The notes under the pieces were generated by a model. It made no database searches and was not told the DNA's origin. It worked only from the letters and a program-made list of their open reading frames with translations. A stretch of DNA of 40,838 nt from Methylococcaceae bacterium (GTDB lineage Bacteria; Pseudomonadota; Gammaproteobacteria; Methylococcales; Methylomonadaceae), in the NCBI GenBank assembly GCA_030627265.1, contig DAOUSK010000008.1, positions 1-40,838 on the forward strand, in the 5' to 3' direction. Both the position numbers and the translations under genes were made by a program. This document shows positions 4,814 through 12,254 of this stretch, in pieces; positions within the stretch are counted from its first letter, which is position 1, and each line of letters begins with the position of its first letter.

Positions 4814-6652
4814 ATGAAAAAAATATTAATTTTATCAAGTAGTTTGGTTTTGATGGCGGGTTGTGCAACAACAGATAAGCCGGATATTGTAAGTTTAATG
4901 AATCAAGAGCTTGAAAATTCGCCCACTGCAGCTGGTGGAGTCGCGGGTGAAAATTGGGCGCGTGGCTATATTTTAGTGCAGCCTCGTGCTGGATTATCCG
5001 GTGAACAGTTTGACGAAATTGTTCGTGGTAAAGGTGGGCGATCTTTAGGTCGTTTATCTAGTTTACCTGTGCATAAAATTGCAGTACCTGAAAATGCAGA
5101 AGATGCGGTTGTGCGTGCATTATCAAAAAATCCAAGTATTAAATTTGCTGAAAAAGATATGTTGGTAGCTGCGGATGAATTTATCCCGAATGATCCTAGG
5201 TATTCAGAGGCATGGCATTTGGCAAAAATTCAAGCGCCTGCAGCGTGGGATTTAGCTCAAGGAGGCGGTATTGTCATTGCTGTTTTGGATACAGGGGTTT
5301 TTGGGGGGCACCCAGACCTAAGTTCTAAAATGGTAGCAGGTTGGAATATTCCAAGTGGTAATACAGATACTGCTGATATTAATGGGCATGGTACGGCTGT
5401 AGCAGGTTTTGTTGGTGCGGCAACAAATAACTTAGTAGGTATTAGTTCAGCTGGTTTTAACACTAAAATCATGCCTATTAGAGTTACAAATAGTGCTGAT
5501 GGTTATACATATTTCAGTGATATTGCTCAAGGAATTACTTGGGCGGCAGATCATGGCGCCCAAGTCGCTAATGCTAGTTTTAGAATTTTTCAGAGTTCGA
5601 CAGCGACCACAGCAGCTCAGTATATGCGCAGTAAAGGTGGGCTAGTCGTTAGTTCGGCAGGAAATGATAGTAAGGACTGGGGAAACGCAGATAATGCTGC
5701 AATGATAACAGTGGCTGCGACAACAAGTGCTGATGTGAAAGCTGGTTTTTCTAATTATGGTAATTATGTTGATGTAACGGCACCAGGGGCTTCTGTTTTA
5801 ACGACCAATAGAGGTGGTGGTTACAGTAAATGGAATGGGACTTCTTTTTCTTCTCCATTAACGGCAAGTGTTGTTGGCTTGATTATGTCAGCTAACCCTA
5901 ATTTAAACCCTGATCAAGTTGAATCAGTACTAGAAGCGTCGGCTGATGATTTAATCGATGGCGTAGATTGGCATATGTATTATGGGCATGGCCGAATTAA
6001 TGCAGCAGCAGCAGTACAAATGGCTTTGAATACCTCCGCAGAAGATAACCAAGCGCCAGTAGTAACGGTTTTTGCACCTGGGGAAAATGCACTTGTCAGT
6101 GGAAATGTGTCAGTTGAAGTGAGTGCCACTGATAATACGGGTGTTAATGAAGTTTCTTTATATGCGAATGGTGTTTTGGTAGCAACAGATATAACCACGC
6201 CTTATCAATTTAGCTGGGATTCAATGCAAGAATCCGATGGGGTGGTGGTGTTAAGTGCTACAGCCATTGACGCATCATTAAATGAAGGCGCCTCCAGTGA
6301 CTTAACTGTCGAAGTTCAAAATACTGTGCCAGTCGAGGATGTAACTGCGCCAACGGTAGTTATTAGTAACCCTGTTGATGGGGCAACTGTTAAAAGAACC
6401 GTTTCTATTGTTGTTGACGCGCTAGATGACGTGCAAGTTGCTGAAATTCAATTAATGATTAATGGGCAAGTAGTGAGTTCTGGTACTGCAAGTAGTATAA
6501 GTTATAGTTGGAATACGCGAAAAGTAGCAAGTGGTGTGCATGTGATTTCTGCAGTAGCAACCGATACAAGTGGTAATGTGTCTCAGCTAGCAGCCGTTAG
6601 TGTAACAATTGGCGGAGATTCAACAAGCACAAAAAGAAAAGGTAGGAAATAA
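4814..6652 (+). CDS. S8 family serine peptidase (subtilisin-like) lipoprotein with propeptide-like N-domain and two C-terminal Ig-like domains
   Basis: Lipobox LMAGCA; VIAVLDTGV (Asp), NGHGTAVAGFVG (His), NGTSFSSPLTASVVGLI (Ser); repeated APxVxxxxPxxGAxVxxxVxVxVxAxD Ig-like modules. Confidence 0.93.
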   Translation: MKKILILSSSLVLMAGCATTDKPDIVSLMNQELENSPTAAGGVAGENWARGYILVQPRAGLSGEQFDEIVRGKGGRSLGRLSSLPVHKIAVPENAEDAVVRALSKNPSIKFAEKDMLVAADEFIPNDPRYSEAWHLAKIQAPAAWDLAQGGGIVIAVLDTGVFGGHPDLSSKMVAGWNIPSGNTDTADINGHGTAVAGFVGAATNNLVGISSAGFNTKIMPIRVTNSADGYTYFSDIAQGITWAADHGAQVANASFRIFQSSTATTAAQYMRSKGGLVVSSAGNDSKDWGNADNAAMITVAATTSADVKAGFSNYGNYVDVTAPGASVLTTNRGGGYSKWNGTSFSSPLTASVVGLIMSANPNLNPDQVESVLEASADDLIDGVDWHMYYGHGRINAAAAVQMALNTSAEDNQAPVVTVFAPGENALVSGNVSVEVSATDNTGVNEVSLYANGVLVATDITTPYQFSWDSMQESDGVVVLSATAIDASLNEGASSDLTVEVQNTVPVEDVTAPTVVISNPVDGATVKRTVSIVVDALDDVQVAEIQLMINGQVVSSGTASSISYSWNTRKVASGVHVISAVATDTSGNVSQLAAVSVTIGGDSTSTKRKGRK

Positions 6653-6699
6653 AAATCCTCAGTTTTGGCGGTAATGGTCTTGTGGGAGAGAGATTTAAT

Positions 6700-6815
6700 C
6701 TCTCCGCAGCTATTTGGTTCTGCTTTATTAAGGTTGTAGCTTTTGGATCTAAAAAAAGCGGCTTAATTGATTTTTTTCAAGTGATAATAAGAAAGAGGCT
6801 TTTTAGCCTCTTTTT
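6700..6815 (+). pseudogene. decayed 3' end of a VPLPA/PEP-CTERM gene with its terminator
   Basis: gcagctatttggtt..tgctttatta..gtagcttttggatctaaaaaa..agcggcttaattgatttttt..aagaaagaggctttttagcctcttttttt aligns with the tail and terminator of the intact gene at 7805-7927, with small indels. Confidence 0.75.
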
Positions 6816-6818
6816 TTT
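6793..6818 (+). terminator. rho-independent terminator
   Basis: aagaggc tttttagcctctt followed by a T-run; same hairpin at 7901-7926. Confidence 0.75.
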
Positions 6819-6842
6819 GTTTTTTTATTGTGGATAAGGTGG

Positions 6843-6913
6843 GTAATACCAATAATTTATGCTTAAACTCATATTTTAAAAAAAACCGTTATTCCTGCAT
6901 GCTCTTAGCAGGA
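6843..6913 (-). repeat. short intergenic repeat family E, reverse-oriented copy
   Basis: Reverse complement ends ...attattggtattac and contains a ggaataacg hairpin, matching copies at 12464 and 13936. Confidence 0.45.
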
Positions 6914-6960
6914 ACCCATCATAGTCACCTCGATTTCCGGTTAAAGAGATGGGGGGGCGA

Positions 6961-7050
6961 CTGTTATAACAATCGGTAGCACTTCAACAACTACAAAAAC
7001 AAAAATAAAAAGGTAGAAAGTAAAAGCTCATAGTTTTGATGGTAAGTTGA
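6961..7050 (+). pseudogene. duplicated remnant of the S8 peptidase 3' end
   Basis: gttataacaatcggtagcacttcaacaactacaaaaacaaaaataaaaaggtagaaagtaaaagctcatagttttgatggtaa aligns with gtgtaacaattggcggagattcaacaagcacaaaaagaaaa...ggtaggaaataaaaatcctcagttttggcggtaa (6599-6674). Confidence 0.7.
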
Positions 7051-7186
7051 AGATAGGAGTTTTTTTATGAATATCCTAGTTTTAGGGATATTTTGAAAAA
7101 CTGCCCTTGAGGACAGTTGTTAATCTTTAAAAAAATGATAACATGATCACAGTTTTAATTTATTAGGTTTAATTTATTAGGAGAGT

Positions 7187-7876
7187 GTGATGAGAATTTT
7201 AAAAAGTGTTTCAATGGGTTTTATGGTAGGTATGTTGAGTGTTTCTAGTGTTCAGGCTTATACATATAATACAGTGGATACAGTGGATACTGCTCCTTTG
7301 TATAATGGAGGGAGTGGTAGTACACTAACAACATATACTGCAGCAGGTATTGAAACTGTCGGCGGCAATACTTATATGAGTTATAATTCAGCAAACTTTC
7401 AAGGTAGTAATACTGGGGATAATTTGCTAGCTAGTACACACATGGCTAATTCAGGTGATGGTGCTGAAAAGAGCTTTATTGCTGATGTTTTGGGTGTAGG
7501 TATCAACGATCTTGACTTTACTCAGACTAACTTGAAGGCTAACGTTGCAGAATCAAGTACTGGTCTTTCTACACTAACAGGTGGCGTAGAGTCTGGGTAT
7601 TTTTTATTGAAATTTGGTGGCGGTCCGGATAAGGAAGTTAATTGGTTGTTTGATAATTCTACATCTACCAGCAATTTTACTTGGTTAACTATGATTGCGC
7701 CTACAAATAAGAATGCTGTACCACTTCCATTAAGTCATGTTAGTTTTGCTTCTTGTAAGGATGGCGTAGAATGTGGTACTCCTGGCAGTGAGGTTCCAAT
7801 TCCTGCAGCCATTTGGTTGTTTGGCTCTGCTTTATTAGGATTCACAGCTTTTGGATCTAAAAAGAAAGCGGCTTAA
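7187..7876 (+). CDS. VPLPA-CTERM/PEP-CTERM sorting-domain protein (exosortase substrate)
   Basis: Signal peptide MMRILKSVSMGFMVGMLSVSSVQA; C-terminus EVPIPAAIWLFGSALLGFTAFGSKKKAA has the motif, TM segment and basic tail. Confidence 0.93.
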   Translation: MMRILKSVSMGFMVGMLSVSSVQAYTYNTVDTVDTAPLYNGGSGSTLTTYTAAGIETVGGNTYMSYNSANFQGSNTGDNLLASTHMANSGDGAEKSFIADVLGVGINDLDFTQTNLKANVAESSTGLSTLTGGVESGYFLLKFGGGPDKEVNWLFDNSTSTSNFTWLTMIAPTNKNAVPLPLSHVSFASCKDGVECGTPGSEVPIPAAIWLFGSALLGFTAFGSKKKAA

Positions 7877-7900
7877 TTAATTTTTTAAGTAACAATAAGA

Positions 7901-7926
7901 AAGAGGCTTTTTAGCCTCTTTTTTTT
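7901..7926 (+). terminator. rho-independent terminator after the VPLPA-CTERM gene
   Basis: aagaggctttttagcctctttttttt. Confidence 0.85.
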
Positions 7927-8005
7927 GGGTGAATATAATGAGCAACCCCAATATATAAACAATTAAATCCTGTTACACGATTATTTTAATCTTTTTGTCA
8001 GGTTT

Positions 8006-8115
8006 CGCGTAGGATGGGGTAGAGCGTCTTTTTGCGAAACCCATCGTTTTGGCATGGGATTGATGGGTTTCATTACGCACCAAAAAGCTGGTGCTGCACT
8101 CTCCCCATCCTGCGA
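8006..8115. repeat. palindromic repeat family A copy 2
   Basis: cgtaggatggggtagagcgtctttttgcgaaacccatcg ... gatgggtttcattacgcacc...gctgcactctccccatcctgcg. Confidence 0.85.
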
Positions 8116-8282
8116 AAAATTGAAATAAAATTAGTATTACAAAGGCTTATAACGGCCTGTAGTTGTTGGAGTTGGTATAATGGACATCGTTAGCCTCTAT
8201 AACACAAGTTAAAAACATACTAGCAGCGAAATAGAAAAATAAGGATTTATTTTATGTCCTTCATCAATACAGGTACAAACTT

Positions 8283-9824
8283 ATGAAGACTATTTGGAAA
8301 ATGGGTGAAAAAAACTGGGGCTTACTGGTTACTGCCCTTGTATTATTGCTAGCTATCTATTGGGATGGCCTGAGTAATTTAATTGTTCGGTGGGATAGGC
8401 AAGAAGAATATAGTCATGGTTATATGTTGCCAGTACTAACGTTATATTTCATCTGGCAAAAGAAAAATGAGATTATTCAATCAACCTTTAAACCCTCTTG
8501 GCTGGGTTTTTGGCTTGCATTACCGGCACTAAGTATTTTTTTAATGGGTGAGGTGAGTGCCTTATTTATTTTAATTCATTACTCATTTGTCGCTGTCTTA
8601 TTAGCGATGGCGTTATCTATAATGGGCTGGCCAGCCATAAAACCAGTATTCGTTCCTTTGTTATTACTTGTTTTTGCTATCCCTATTCCTTATTTCTTAG
8701 AAGCGAGTTTATCGGCTAACTTACAATTATTATCTTCTAAATTAGGAGTTGCCTTTATACGCTGGTGCAGTATCCCTGTTTATTTAGAAGGTAATGTGAT
8801 TGATTTAGGTAGCTATCAATTACAAGTTGTTGAGGCTTGTAGTGGTTTGCGTTATTTATTTCCACTAATGAGTTTGGGCTTCATTTGTGCTTATTTGTTT
8901 GAGGCAGCATTTTGGAAGCGTGCAGTTCTCTTCTTATCAACTATTCCCATTACTTTAATAATGAATAGTTTCCGAATTGGTGCAATCGGGGTGTTAGTGA
9001 ATAGCTGGGGCATAGAAGCCGCAGATGGTTTTCTACATGATTTTGAAGGTTGGGTTGTCTTTATGGCCTGCATGGCCCTGCTGTTTTTAGAAATGATGCT
9101 ATTAACCCAGTTGGCTGTGAAGAAAGCTAGGCCTTTAAAAGAGGTCTTTGGCTTGGTGGCGGAAGCAGAGTTACCTGAGGGGGAATCAAAAGTTAGAGCG
9201 ATTAGTTCTCCATTTATAGCGATTATTGTATTAGTTGCTATTATGGGCGCTATTGTTAGCACGGTAGATACCAGGAACGAGGTATTTCCTGAGCGAAAAA
9301 GCTTTCCTGAATTTCCAGATAACCTCGCAGATTGGCAGGGTAAGCAAACCACAATGAAGTCAAATGTGATTAAGACTTTAGGGCTCTCTGATTATATTAT
9401 GACTAATTACGCTAAGCCTAATAGCATGTCGATTAACTTTTATGTGGCGTATTATAAATCACAGAGAAAGGGTGTGTCGCCACATTCACCGCGTGTTTGT
9501 ATTCCTGGAGGGGGATGGCAAATTTCTGAAATTAGCCGTATTGATGTCAATAATTCGCCTGTTAATAGAATTGTGATTAAAAAAGGCGAAAGTGTGCAGC
9601 TAGTGTATTATTGGTTTCAACAGCGAGGGAGAATTTTGGCTAATGAATACTTAATGAAGTGGTATTTATTTAAAGATGCTGTTTTTCTAAATCGCACCGA
9701 TGGCGCTTTAGTCAGAATTACGACAGCCGTTAATTCTATGGAGAGTATTGCAGATGCTGACCGACGCTTAGCTGGGTTTTATCAGCAGGTCGCACCTGTA
9801 TTACCTGAGTATATCCCTAATTAA
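8283..9824 (+). CDS. xrtD: exosortase D-like (VPLPA-CTERM-specific) fused to EpsI domain
   Basis: Exosortase triad motifs VVEACSGLRYLFPL (Cys), IMNSFRIGAIGVLV (Arg), GFLHDFEGWVVF (His); C-terminal EpsI-like VAYYKSQRKGVSPHSPRVCIPGGGW. The neighbouring substrate has a VPLPA-type motif. Confidence 0.92.
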   Translation: MKTIWKMGEKNWGLLVTALVLLLAIYWDGLSNLIVRWDRQEEYSHGYMLPVLTLYFIWQKKNEIIQSTFKPSWLGFWLALPALSIFLMGEVSALFILIHYSFVAVLLAMALSIMGWPAIKPVFVPLLLLVFAIPIPYFLEASLSANLQLLSSKLGVAFIRWCSIPVYLEGNVIDLGSYQLQVVEACSGLRYLFPLMSLGFICAYLFEAAFWKRAVLFLSTIPITLIMNSFRIGAIGVLVNSWGIEAADGFLHDFEGWVVFMACMALLFLEMMLLTQLAVKKARPLKEVFGLVAEAELPEGESKVRAISSPFIAIIVLVAIMGAIVSTVDTRNEVFPERKSFPEFPDNLADWQGKQTTMKSNVIKTLGLSDYIMTNYAKPNSMSINFYVAYYKSQRKGVSPHSPRVCIPGGGWQISEISRIDVNNSPVNRIVIKKGESVQLVYYWFQQRGRILANEYLMKWYLFKDAVFLNRTDGALVRITTAVNSMESIADADRRLAGFYQQVAPVLPEYIPN

Positions 9825-9848
9825 GTTTTCTGAATTTCTAAAGGTATT

Positions 9849-12254
9849 TTGATGAAAAAAATAATGACTATTTTGGCTTGTTCTGTTGCTTTATCTGGAT
9901 GTGCTGACCCAGCAGAGCGTTCTGTAGAATATTTGGAAAGTGGTAAAACGCTTTACGAGCAAGAGAAGCTTAAAAAGGCTAAGCTTGAATTTAGAAACGC
10001 TTTGCAAATTGATAATAAATTATCGGATGCTTATTATCATTTAGGTCTGATTGCAGAAAAAAATAAAAATTGGGAAGGAATGTATAAAAACCTTTCTAGA
10101 GTGGTTAACTTAACGCCAGAAAATAGTGAGGCACGGTTAAAATTAGCGAAGCTTTATTTATTATCTAGCGAGGATGATAAGGCTTCAACTGAAATTGAAT
10201 TTGTGCTTAAACAGGCACCCGGTAATGTTGACGCTATTGCTCTAAAAGGAGCTGTGTTATTAAAGAGAAATAATCTTAACGACGCTTTGGCGGAGGCTGA
10301 TAAGGCTTTATTACTTAATCCTAAACATATAGATGCAATTAGTTTAAAAGTTATTATTTATATGTCTAAGGAGGAAATGGGGGCAGCGAGTTCATTTATT
10401 GAACAAGCGATAAGCGCACAACCTGATAAGTTAGAATTGCAGTTATTGCAGTTACAAGTTTATATAAAAAGCGATAATAAGCAGGCTATTGAAAGTGGCT
10501 ATAAGGCGTTAATTAAAAATTTCGCTGATCAACCTGATTTCTCTTATGCGCTGGCGCAATTTTATAATAGTCAATCACAGGATGCTGAAGCGCGATCTGT
10601 ATTACAAGAGTTAGCCAATAAGAGTTCTGAATTAGCTCCTAAGTTAGTCTTGTTAGATTATTTAACAAAAAAAGATAAAGCGGAGGCAAAACTTTTTTTA
10701 GCAAAATTGATTGAGGAAATGCCTGAAGAGGTGAAGCTTTATTTAAGGCAAGCTAACATGTTTGTTTCTGAGGAAAATTTTGATGAAGCAAAAAAATCTT
10801 TATTGTGGGTGGTAAAACATCATGAAAACAAAAAAGAAGGATTGCAAGCTAAAGTGGTATTGGCTAAGTTAGCAGTAGCACAAGATAAAGATAATGCTGC
10901 AGCACGCACGATGGTAGAAGAGGTGTTGGCTGTCGATGTAAGACATTATGAAGCTTTGCTGTTAAAAGCACGTCTTGATTTAATTGATGGGCATTATGAT
11001 CAGGCTATTGCGGATTTAAGGGGGGTTTTAAGGGACTATTCTAAATCAGATGAAGCACTGGTTTTAATGGCACAGGCGTATCTTAAAAAAGAAGCGCCTG
11101 AATTAGCGGAAGAAAATTTTAGAAAAGCACTGGATATAAACCCAGGTAATTTTTCTGCGCTTATGCCGGTTGTTTCACGTATGGTGAAAAGTAAAGATTT
11201 ATTACGTGCTGATGAAGTATTAAAAAAAGCCTTAGTAATTAACCCTGATCATGCGGGTGCTTTGCAAGCATTAGCGCAGGTTCGTTTGTTAAATAAAGAT
11301 TGGCAAGGTACGAAAAAAGTTGCTGATTTAATTTCGACTAAACCAAAGGGCGAAGGTTTTTCTTTCTATTTGGATGGGAAGGTTTTACAAGGGCAGAAAT
11401 CATACCAAGAAGCGATTGATAAATATAAACAGGCGTTAGAAATTAGACCGAGTTTAACGGACGCTTTAAATAACATGTCGGTGTGTTATCAGGCACTTAA
11501 TCAGCGTCCTGCTTTATTTGCTTATTTTGATGTATTTATGTTGAAAAATCCTAATAATTTTCAACCTATTTTGCTAAAAACAAGAATCTATGGAGTAGAG
11601 AAAGATTGGTCTAATGCGCTAGCTACCATTGATAAGGGCTTACAAACGTGGCCTAAAGTTCCTCAGCTTTATTCGCTTATGGCTGGAATTTATGATGCGC
11701 AAAAAAATCGAGCGAAGGTAATTGAGAGTTATAAAACAGGAGTAGCTAATATTCCTAATAATTATCAATTAATGCTATTGCTGGCTTCGGCTTATGAAGC
11801 GGATAAAGACTACCCTAAAGCGATAGAAGCTTATGAAGACTTAATTGCTAAAAAACCTGAGGTTGATATTGCGGTTAATAATTTAGTTTCTTTATTGCTA
11901 GATTATGCGCCAAGTGCAGAGAATGTTCAGAAGGGTTTAGTTTTGGCTGAGCGATTTTCTGAATCTAAACAGGCATACTTTTTAGATACTTATGGCTGGG
12001 CGCTTTTAAAGAATGATAAATTGAAGGAGGCTATTGTTGTTTTTAAAGAAGTTAATACAATGATGCCAAGTACTGCTGTTTTTCAGTATCATTTAGGACT
12101 CGCACATTTTAAAGAGAATAATTTTGTTGAATCAGAAAAGGTGTTAAAGTTAGGACTCAAAAGTTCTGATATGCAGAAAACTGAGTTTTTAGAAAAAGAT
12201 AAGGTAACTTCTTTATTGGCAGAGTTGAAAATTAAGCTCGCGACTAAGAAATAG
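9849..12254 (+). CDS. prsT: PEP-CTERM system TPR-repeat lipoprotein (PrsT-like)
   Basis: Lipobox LSGCADPAE; many TPR repeats; start SVEYLESGKTLYEQEKLKKAKLEFRNALQIDNKLSDAYYHLGLIAEK typical of TPR_PEP lipoproteins; 24 bp after xrtD. Confidence 0.88.
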   Translation: MMKKIMTILACSVALSGCADPAERSVEYLESGKTLYEQEKLKKAKLEFRNALQIDNKLSDAYYHLGLIAEKNKNWEGMYKNLSRVVNLTPENSEARLKLAKLYLLSSEDDKASTEIEFVLKQAPGNVDAIALKGAVLLKRNNLNDALAEADKALLLNPKHIDAISLKVIIYMSKEEMGAASSFIEQAISAQPDKLELQLLQLQVYIKSDNKQAIESGYKALIKNFADQPDFSYALAQFYNSQSQDAEARSVLQELANKSSELAPKLVLLDYLTKKDKAEAKLFLAKLIEEMPEEVKLYLRQANMFVSEENFDEAKKSLLWVVKHHENKKEGLQAKVVLAKLAVAQDKDNAAARTMVEEVLAVDVRHYEALLLKARLDLIDGHYDQAIADLRGVLRDYSKSDEALVLMAQAYLKKEAPELAEENFRKALDINPGNFSALMPVVSRMVKSKDLLRADEVLKKALVINPDHAGALQALAQVRLLNKDWQGTKKVADLISTKPKGEGFSFYLDGKVLQGQKSYQEAIDKYKQALEIRPSLTDALNNMSVCYQALNQRPALFAYFDVFMLKNPNNFQPILLKTRIYGVEKDWSNALATIDKGLQTWPKVPQLYSLMAGIYDAQKNRAKVIESYKTGVANIPNNYQLMLLLASAYEADKDYPKAIEAYEDLIAKKPEVDIAVNNLVSLLLDYAPSAENVQKGLVLAERFSESKQAYFLDTYGWALLKNDKLKEAIVVFKEVNTMMPSTAVFQYHLGLAHFKENNFVESEKVLKLGLKSSDMQKTEFLEKDKVTSLLAELKIKLATKK

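Follow-up and report, generated by a model that had tools for sequence, protein, structure and literature searches.

What left two degraded gene ends between an intact S8 protease gene and an intact gene for a VPLPA-CTERM protein? We addressed this question in a 40,838-nucleotide stretch of a Methylococcaceae bacterium genome (contig DAOUSK010000008.1), hereafter the window, whose features at this locus are listed in Table 1. The S8 gene, the CTERM gene and the gene for exosortase XrtD share one common strand across the window. The CTERM gene end reads VPIPAAIWLFGSALLGFTAFGSKKKAA, and direct reading of the sequence revealed the C-terminal motif, the hydrophobic stretch and the basic end in its product, which no NCBIfam or Pfam model matched above threshold. 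A search of the source genome for TIGR02595 matches returned none. We also observed a second copy of the segment encoding XrtD and a TPR protein (8286-12097) in the same assembly (L074, G000:C153:6-3818), with 86% DNA identity over 3.8 kb and preceded by a different VPLPA-CTERM gene; no second copy exists for the remainder of 8.2-20 kb. This segment may represent a genuine second locus, or the bin may include a foreign contig.

Table 1 Features of the S8/VPLPA-CTERM/XrtD locus (window positions) and loci of the S8 subfamily with PEP-CTERM genes.
Feature	Position	Strand	Remarks
S8 subtilase gene	4814-6652	+	lipoprotein-type signal; Peptidase_S8 and Big_7 domains; tail KRKGRK
A1, 3' end of S8 plus the first 22 bases after its stop	6610-6674	+	source of A2
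Hairpin GGAGAGA..TCTCTCC	6685-6705	+	no T-run; ~33 nt 3' of S8 stop; -11.5 kcal/mol
B1, decayed copy of the CTERM gene's last ~23 codons, stop and post-stop DNA	6706-6783	+	indels break frame
B1 terminator, intrinsic (predicted)	6784-6827	+	copied from CTERM gene; 35/36 identical
R1, dispersed inverted-repeat element	6844 to ~6973	+	left end present, right terminal repeat missing
A2, decayed copy of S8 3' end and post-stop DNA	6976-7045	+	reads TVITIGSTSTTTKTKIKR, then stop; from 6967 if bases common to R1 are counted
Intact VPLPA-CTERM protein gene	7190-7876	+	end and terminator are B2, 7805-7927
Terminator of CTERM gene	7892-7927	+	source of B1 terminator
R2, second inverted-repeat element, related to R1	about 7935-8182	+	directly 3' of CTERM terminator
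Exosortase XrtD gene, VPLPA-CTERM-specific	8283-9824	+	TIGR04152, 569 bits (cut-off 400)
Loci, S8 subfamily/PEP-CTERM	window 4814-7876; L069, L070, L072, L073, L115, L116, L119, L122, L126, L128, L130, L131, L135

Decayed copies of both gene ends lie between the intact genes

We observed that positions 6706-6819 align to the end of the CTERM gene and its terminator (B2), interrupted only by small indels of 8, 1, 2 and 1-2 nt. The local score of 79 far exceeded the maximum of 24 reached among 2000 dinucleotide-preserving shuffles. Identity was 68 of 76 columns (~90%) outside the terminator, and near-complete identity within it included a run of 34 identical bases at 6786-6819. The coding capacity of B1 is gone, its reading being spread over several frames by the indels, and its likeness to B2 runs on through the post-stop DNA and terminator of the CTERM gene. 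The original prediction, which had placed a degraded copy of the CTERM 3' end at 6700-6815, is thus confirmed as to the copy itself, although the similarity at 6675-6700 is weak and does not clearly belong to it.

A second remnant, A2, repeats the 3' end of the S8 gene. It had been proposed at 6961-7050 and is borne out within the narrower limits given in Table 1, at a weaker level than B1: 47 of 65 columns are identical to A1 (72%), with one 7-nt indel that shifts the reading frame. Untrimmed, the alignment of 6603-6674 with 6967-7045 scored 27 against a shuffle maximum of 18. The first bases of A2 (ATAACA) fit the adjoining repeat element R1 as well; when they were trimmed off (6619-6674 against 6983-7045), the score was still 26, and none of 11,934 control tiles (3198 from the window and 8736 from the same genome) exceeded 17. 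Both remnants therefore score above every shuffle and control tile, and on these grounds we reject chance AT-rich similarity as their source. A2 contains no more of S8 than its last ~15 codons, and nothing from further upstream remains; a stop stands near the position equivalent to the S8 stop and is followed by homologous post-stop DNA.

We then asked how specific the remnants are to this locus. No further copy of B1 or A2 was found by searching the source genome, and neither was found at the DNA level in the 236 further family genomes; across all 237 genomes searched, matches were confined to the repeat and to short pieces that were terminator-like or AT-rich. On this DNA search of the family we reject the idea that the remnants are independent conserved elements. 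Relatives likewise yielded no intact or intermediate duplicated state in the same 236 genomes.

The S8 protease probably ended at its present stop before the duplication

B1 follows closely on the S8 stop but in a different frame, and the original prediction accordingly offered an alternative in which the S8 protease originally carried a VPLPA-CTERM tail of its own, lost by frameshift, with B1 as that lost tail. We consider this extremely unlikely. None of 28 aligned S8 proteins (the window's own and 27 homologs, including that of sister G008a) carries a PEP- or VPLPA-CTERM tail, and lysine-rich ends resembling KRKGRK occur in G008b, G149, G147a, G147b and Seongchinamella. Sorting-like tails appeared in distant homologs only (G382, G412), and these by resemblance are nearer to GlyGly-CTERM than to VPLPA-CTERM. 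Moreover, the B1 similarity extends past the neighbouring gene's stop into its terminator, and A2 duplicates the S8 end together with its stop and post-stop DNA. The homolog tails and the duplicated stop lead us to reject a lost tail. Since the duplicated S8 end has both a stop and homologous post-stop DNA, S8 probably ended there already when it was duplicated.

A truncated repeat element separates the two remnants

The DNA between B1 and A2, overlooked in the earlier reading, is not a featureless spacer but a truncated copy of R1, a short element with 34 matches dispersed through the 2.3-Mb source genome and bounded by terminal inverted repeats. More complete copies have the ends ATACCAAT.. 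and ..ATTGGTAT, and they end in ATTTATTGGGATTGGTATTA or similar; at this locus S8-like sequence starts there instead, where a few bases (ATAACA/GTAACA) are common to both. The boundary with A2 resembles an illegitimate join within R1, and it is compatible with a deletion of the R1 end and an S8 body or with a duplication that had R1 and the S8 end as its breakpoints. Behind the second copy there is no R1 but the other element, R2, so R1 must have been lost there if it was part of the duplicated segment. This absence mildly favours deletion, and the absence of further S8 sequence leaves room for a shorter duplication. The hairpin ahead of B1 lies near the presumed point at which the deletion joined B1 to the DNA behind the S8 stop.

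Short dispersed inverted-repeat elements are dense between genes of this genome (6844-6973, 7935-8182, 4502-4650, 12313-12437 and 17204-17312 in the window), and the S8-CTERM pair has R2-type elements in opposite orientation on its flanks.

Gene order and divergence point to a tandem duplication

The four segments follow the order A1-B1-A2-B2, all on the same strand, which is the order of the intact genes. Because the order is of the form A-B-A'-B', both copies are specific to the locus and no other source was found in the genome, these data support a tandem duplication. S8 genes of this subfamily have also undergone separate tandem duplications in G147, G164 and the ancestor of G161/G162/G169/G171. 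The A pair has diverged more than the B pair (72% against 89.5% identity; Fisher p=0.015). This gap is roughly what a single duplication would predict if the B2 branch is under coding constraint and the S8 tail is little constrained; two separate events could also produce it.

The unequal divergence, together with the shortness and AT-richness of A2, would suit a different origin, in which B1 is an independently copied terminator or sorting-tail cassette, unrelated to A2, and A2 is a chance match or the product of a separate event. We regard this as improbable, since the A2 score is beyond every control tile, both pieces derive from two adjacent genes with their order kept, and other CTERM genes of the source genome match B1 in its tail-coding part alone and not in its terminator.

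How much of the locus was duplicated is a narrower matter. The original prediction of a duplicated unit of S8 and CTERM gene with large internal deletions stands as far as the tandem duplication is concerned; the whole S8 gene may have been included, but because the second copy holds only its last ~15 codons and is abutted by the truncated repeat, a shorter duplication that began within S8 is equally compatible. In the full version, an array S8a-CTERMa-S8b-CTERMb would have arisen, R1 would have inserted upstream of or in S8b, and the right end of R1 with almost all of S8b, as well as CTERMa, would have been deleted. The truncation of R1 at the start of A2 is what would remain after a deletion that began within R1 and reached the 3' end of S8b, and tandem S8 duplications recur in the family. 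However, no S8 sequence upstream of those codons is left, one deletion more is needed than for a short duplication, and the tandem S8 genes of relatives have no CTERM gene between them. We therefore hold this sub-case of a tandem duplication to be plausible, with the balance tilting slightly against it.

The remnant terminator probably serves the S8 gene

The B1 hairpin has a predicted stability of -15.3 kcal/mol (z -4.5) and starts 137 nt 3' of the S8 stop. It is the only terminator-like site that we found on the + strand between S8 and the CTERM gene, and it probably ends S8 transcription at present. Its conservation did not differ significantly from that of the rest of B1 (p=0.15); compared with all fossil columns together, p was 0.012. 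The B1 terminator is a likely case of a pseudogene terminator kept in use.

S8 genes of this subfamily lie beside PEP-CTERM genes in most genomes tested

In 11 of 15 genomes tested, a PEP-CTERM model match (TIGR02595) lies at most 1.3 kb from the S8 gene, where chance alone would give 0.13. Because the 15 genomes are related, the independent cases are fewer than the very small nominal probability of this count implies. The orientation of the pair varies between convergent, divergent and in line. Within the genus (n=18 genomes), S8 homologs at E<=1e-60 were found, besides the window's own, in G008 only, where they lie far from XrtD and the CTERM gene is divergent. One scan of public genomes gave Seongchinamella sediminis only, and a literature search found nothing on the S8/PEP-CTERM pairing.

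Several of these loci have further features. The pair of S. sediminis adjoins genes like those for a sensor kinase and a sigma-54-type regulator (PrsK/PrsR-like). In G147 (L130 2232-3290) and G057 (L072 5234-6817), a gene whose product looks, by eye, like an isoprenylcysteine-carboxyl-methyltransferase-type enzyme stands beside the PEP-CTERM gene near S8, and in G192 (L120 1983-2714) the PEP-CTERM gene next to S8 is broken into two ORFs and may be a pseudogene.

The body of the window's CTERM protein found its best match in the CTERM gene beside the S8 gene of G149 (E about 1e-9 among 19 proteins compared). This match and the XrtD locus of G009, which has no S8 gene, suggest that S8 and its CTERM partner may have entered the XrtD locus together. 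On a broader reading, S8 and its PEP/VPLPA-CTERM neighbour would form a conserved functional pair that arrived at the XrtD locus as a cassette and then underwent duplication in place, with the fossil as a trace of the pair's expansion; the protease might, for example, mature or release the surface protein, or be held by it. We regard this reading as rather doubtful. If functional, the pairing would suggest that exosortase-sorted proteins have a protease partner dedicated to them. Its frequency far above chance makes it a lead of wider interest than the fossil, which documents one small duplication and its decay.

Discussion

In conclusion, the remnants between the S8 and CTERM genes are an ordinary decayed tandem duplication, a product of ordinary genome wear. 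Very likely, a single duplication that took in the S8 3' end, the CTERM gene and its terminator was followed by deletion of the first CTERM body and rearrangement at R1, with the remnant terminator probably ending S8 transcription. The ancestral segment would have comprised at least the last S8 codons, the whole VPLPA-CTERM gene and its terminator. A deletion starting right after S8 and reaching about codon 206 would then have removed the CTERM body of the first copy, so that the frame-broken tail and terminator that we see as B1 were left. Of S8, the second copy would have retained only the 3' end, A2, joined to R1 where the right end of the element was presumably lost at a microhomology junction, and the intact CTERM gene would belong to this second copy. 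This history rests on one locus.

The events proposed here have parallels in known systems. R1 and R2 resemble MITE-like elements in being short, dispersed and non-coding, with inverted ends ATACCAATCCCAATAA. Like other decayed tandem gene duplications that leave pseudogene fragments in bacteria, the locus has partial copies beside their intact sources, indels, stops and repeat elements nearby; it differs in that gene ends alone remain and that one remnant has a terminator predicted to work. With PEP-CTERM/exosortase loci that combine XrtD (TIGR04152) and VPLPA-CTERM proteins, it shares an XrtD gene scoring above the curated cut-off directly downstream of the CTERM gene. It differs from the XrtD locus of G009, which is arranged WecG-CTERM-XrtD, in having an S8 gene and another CTERM gene.
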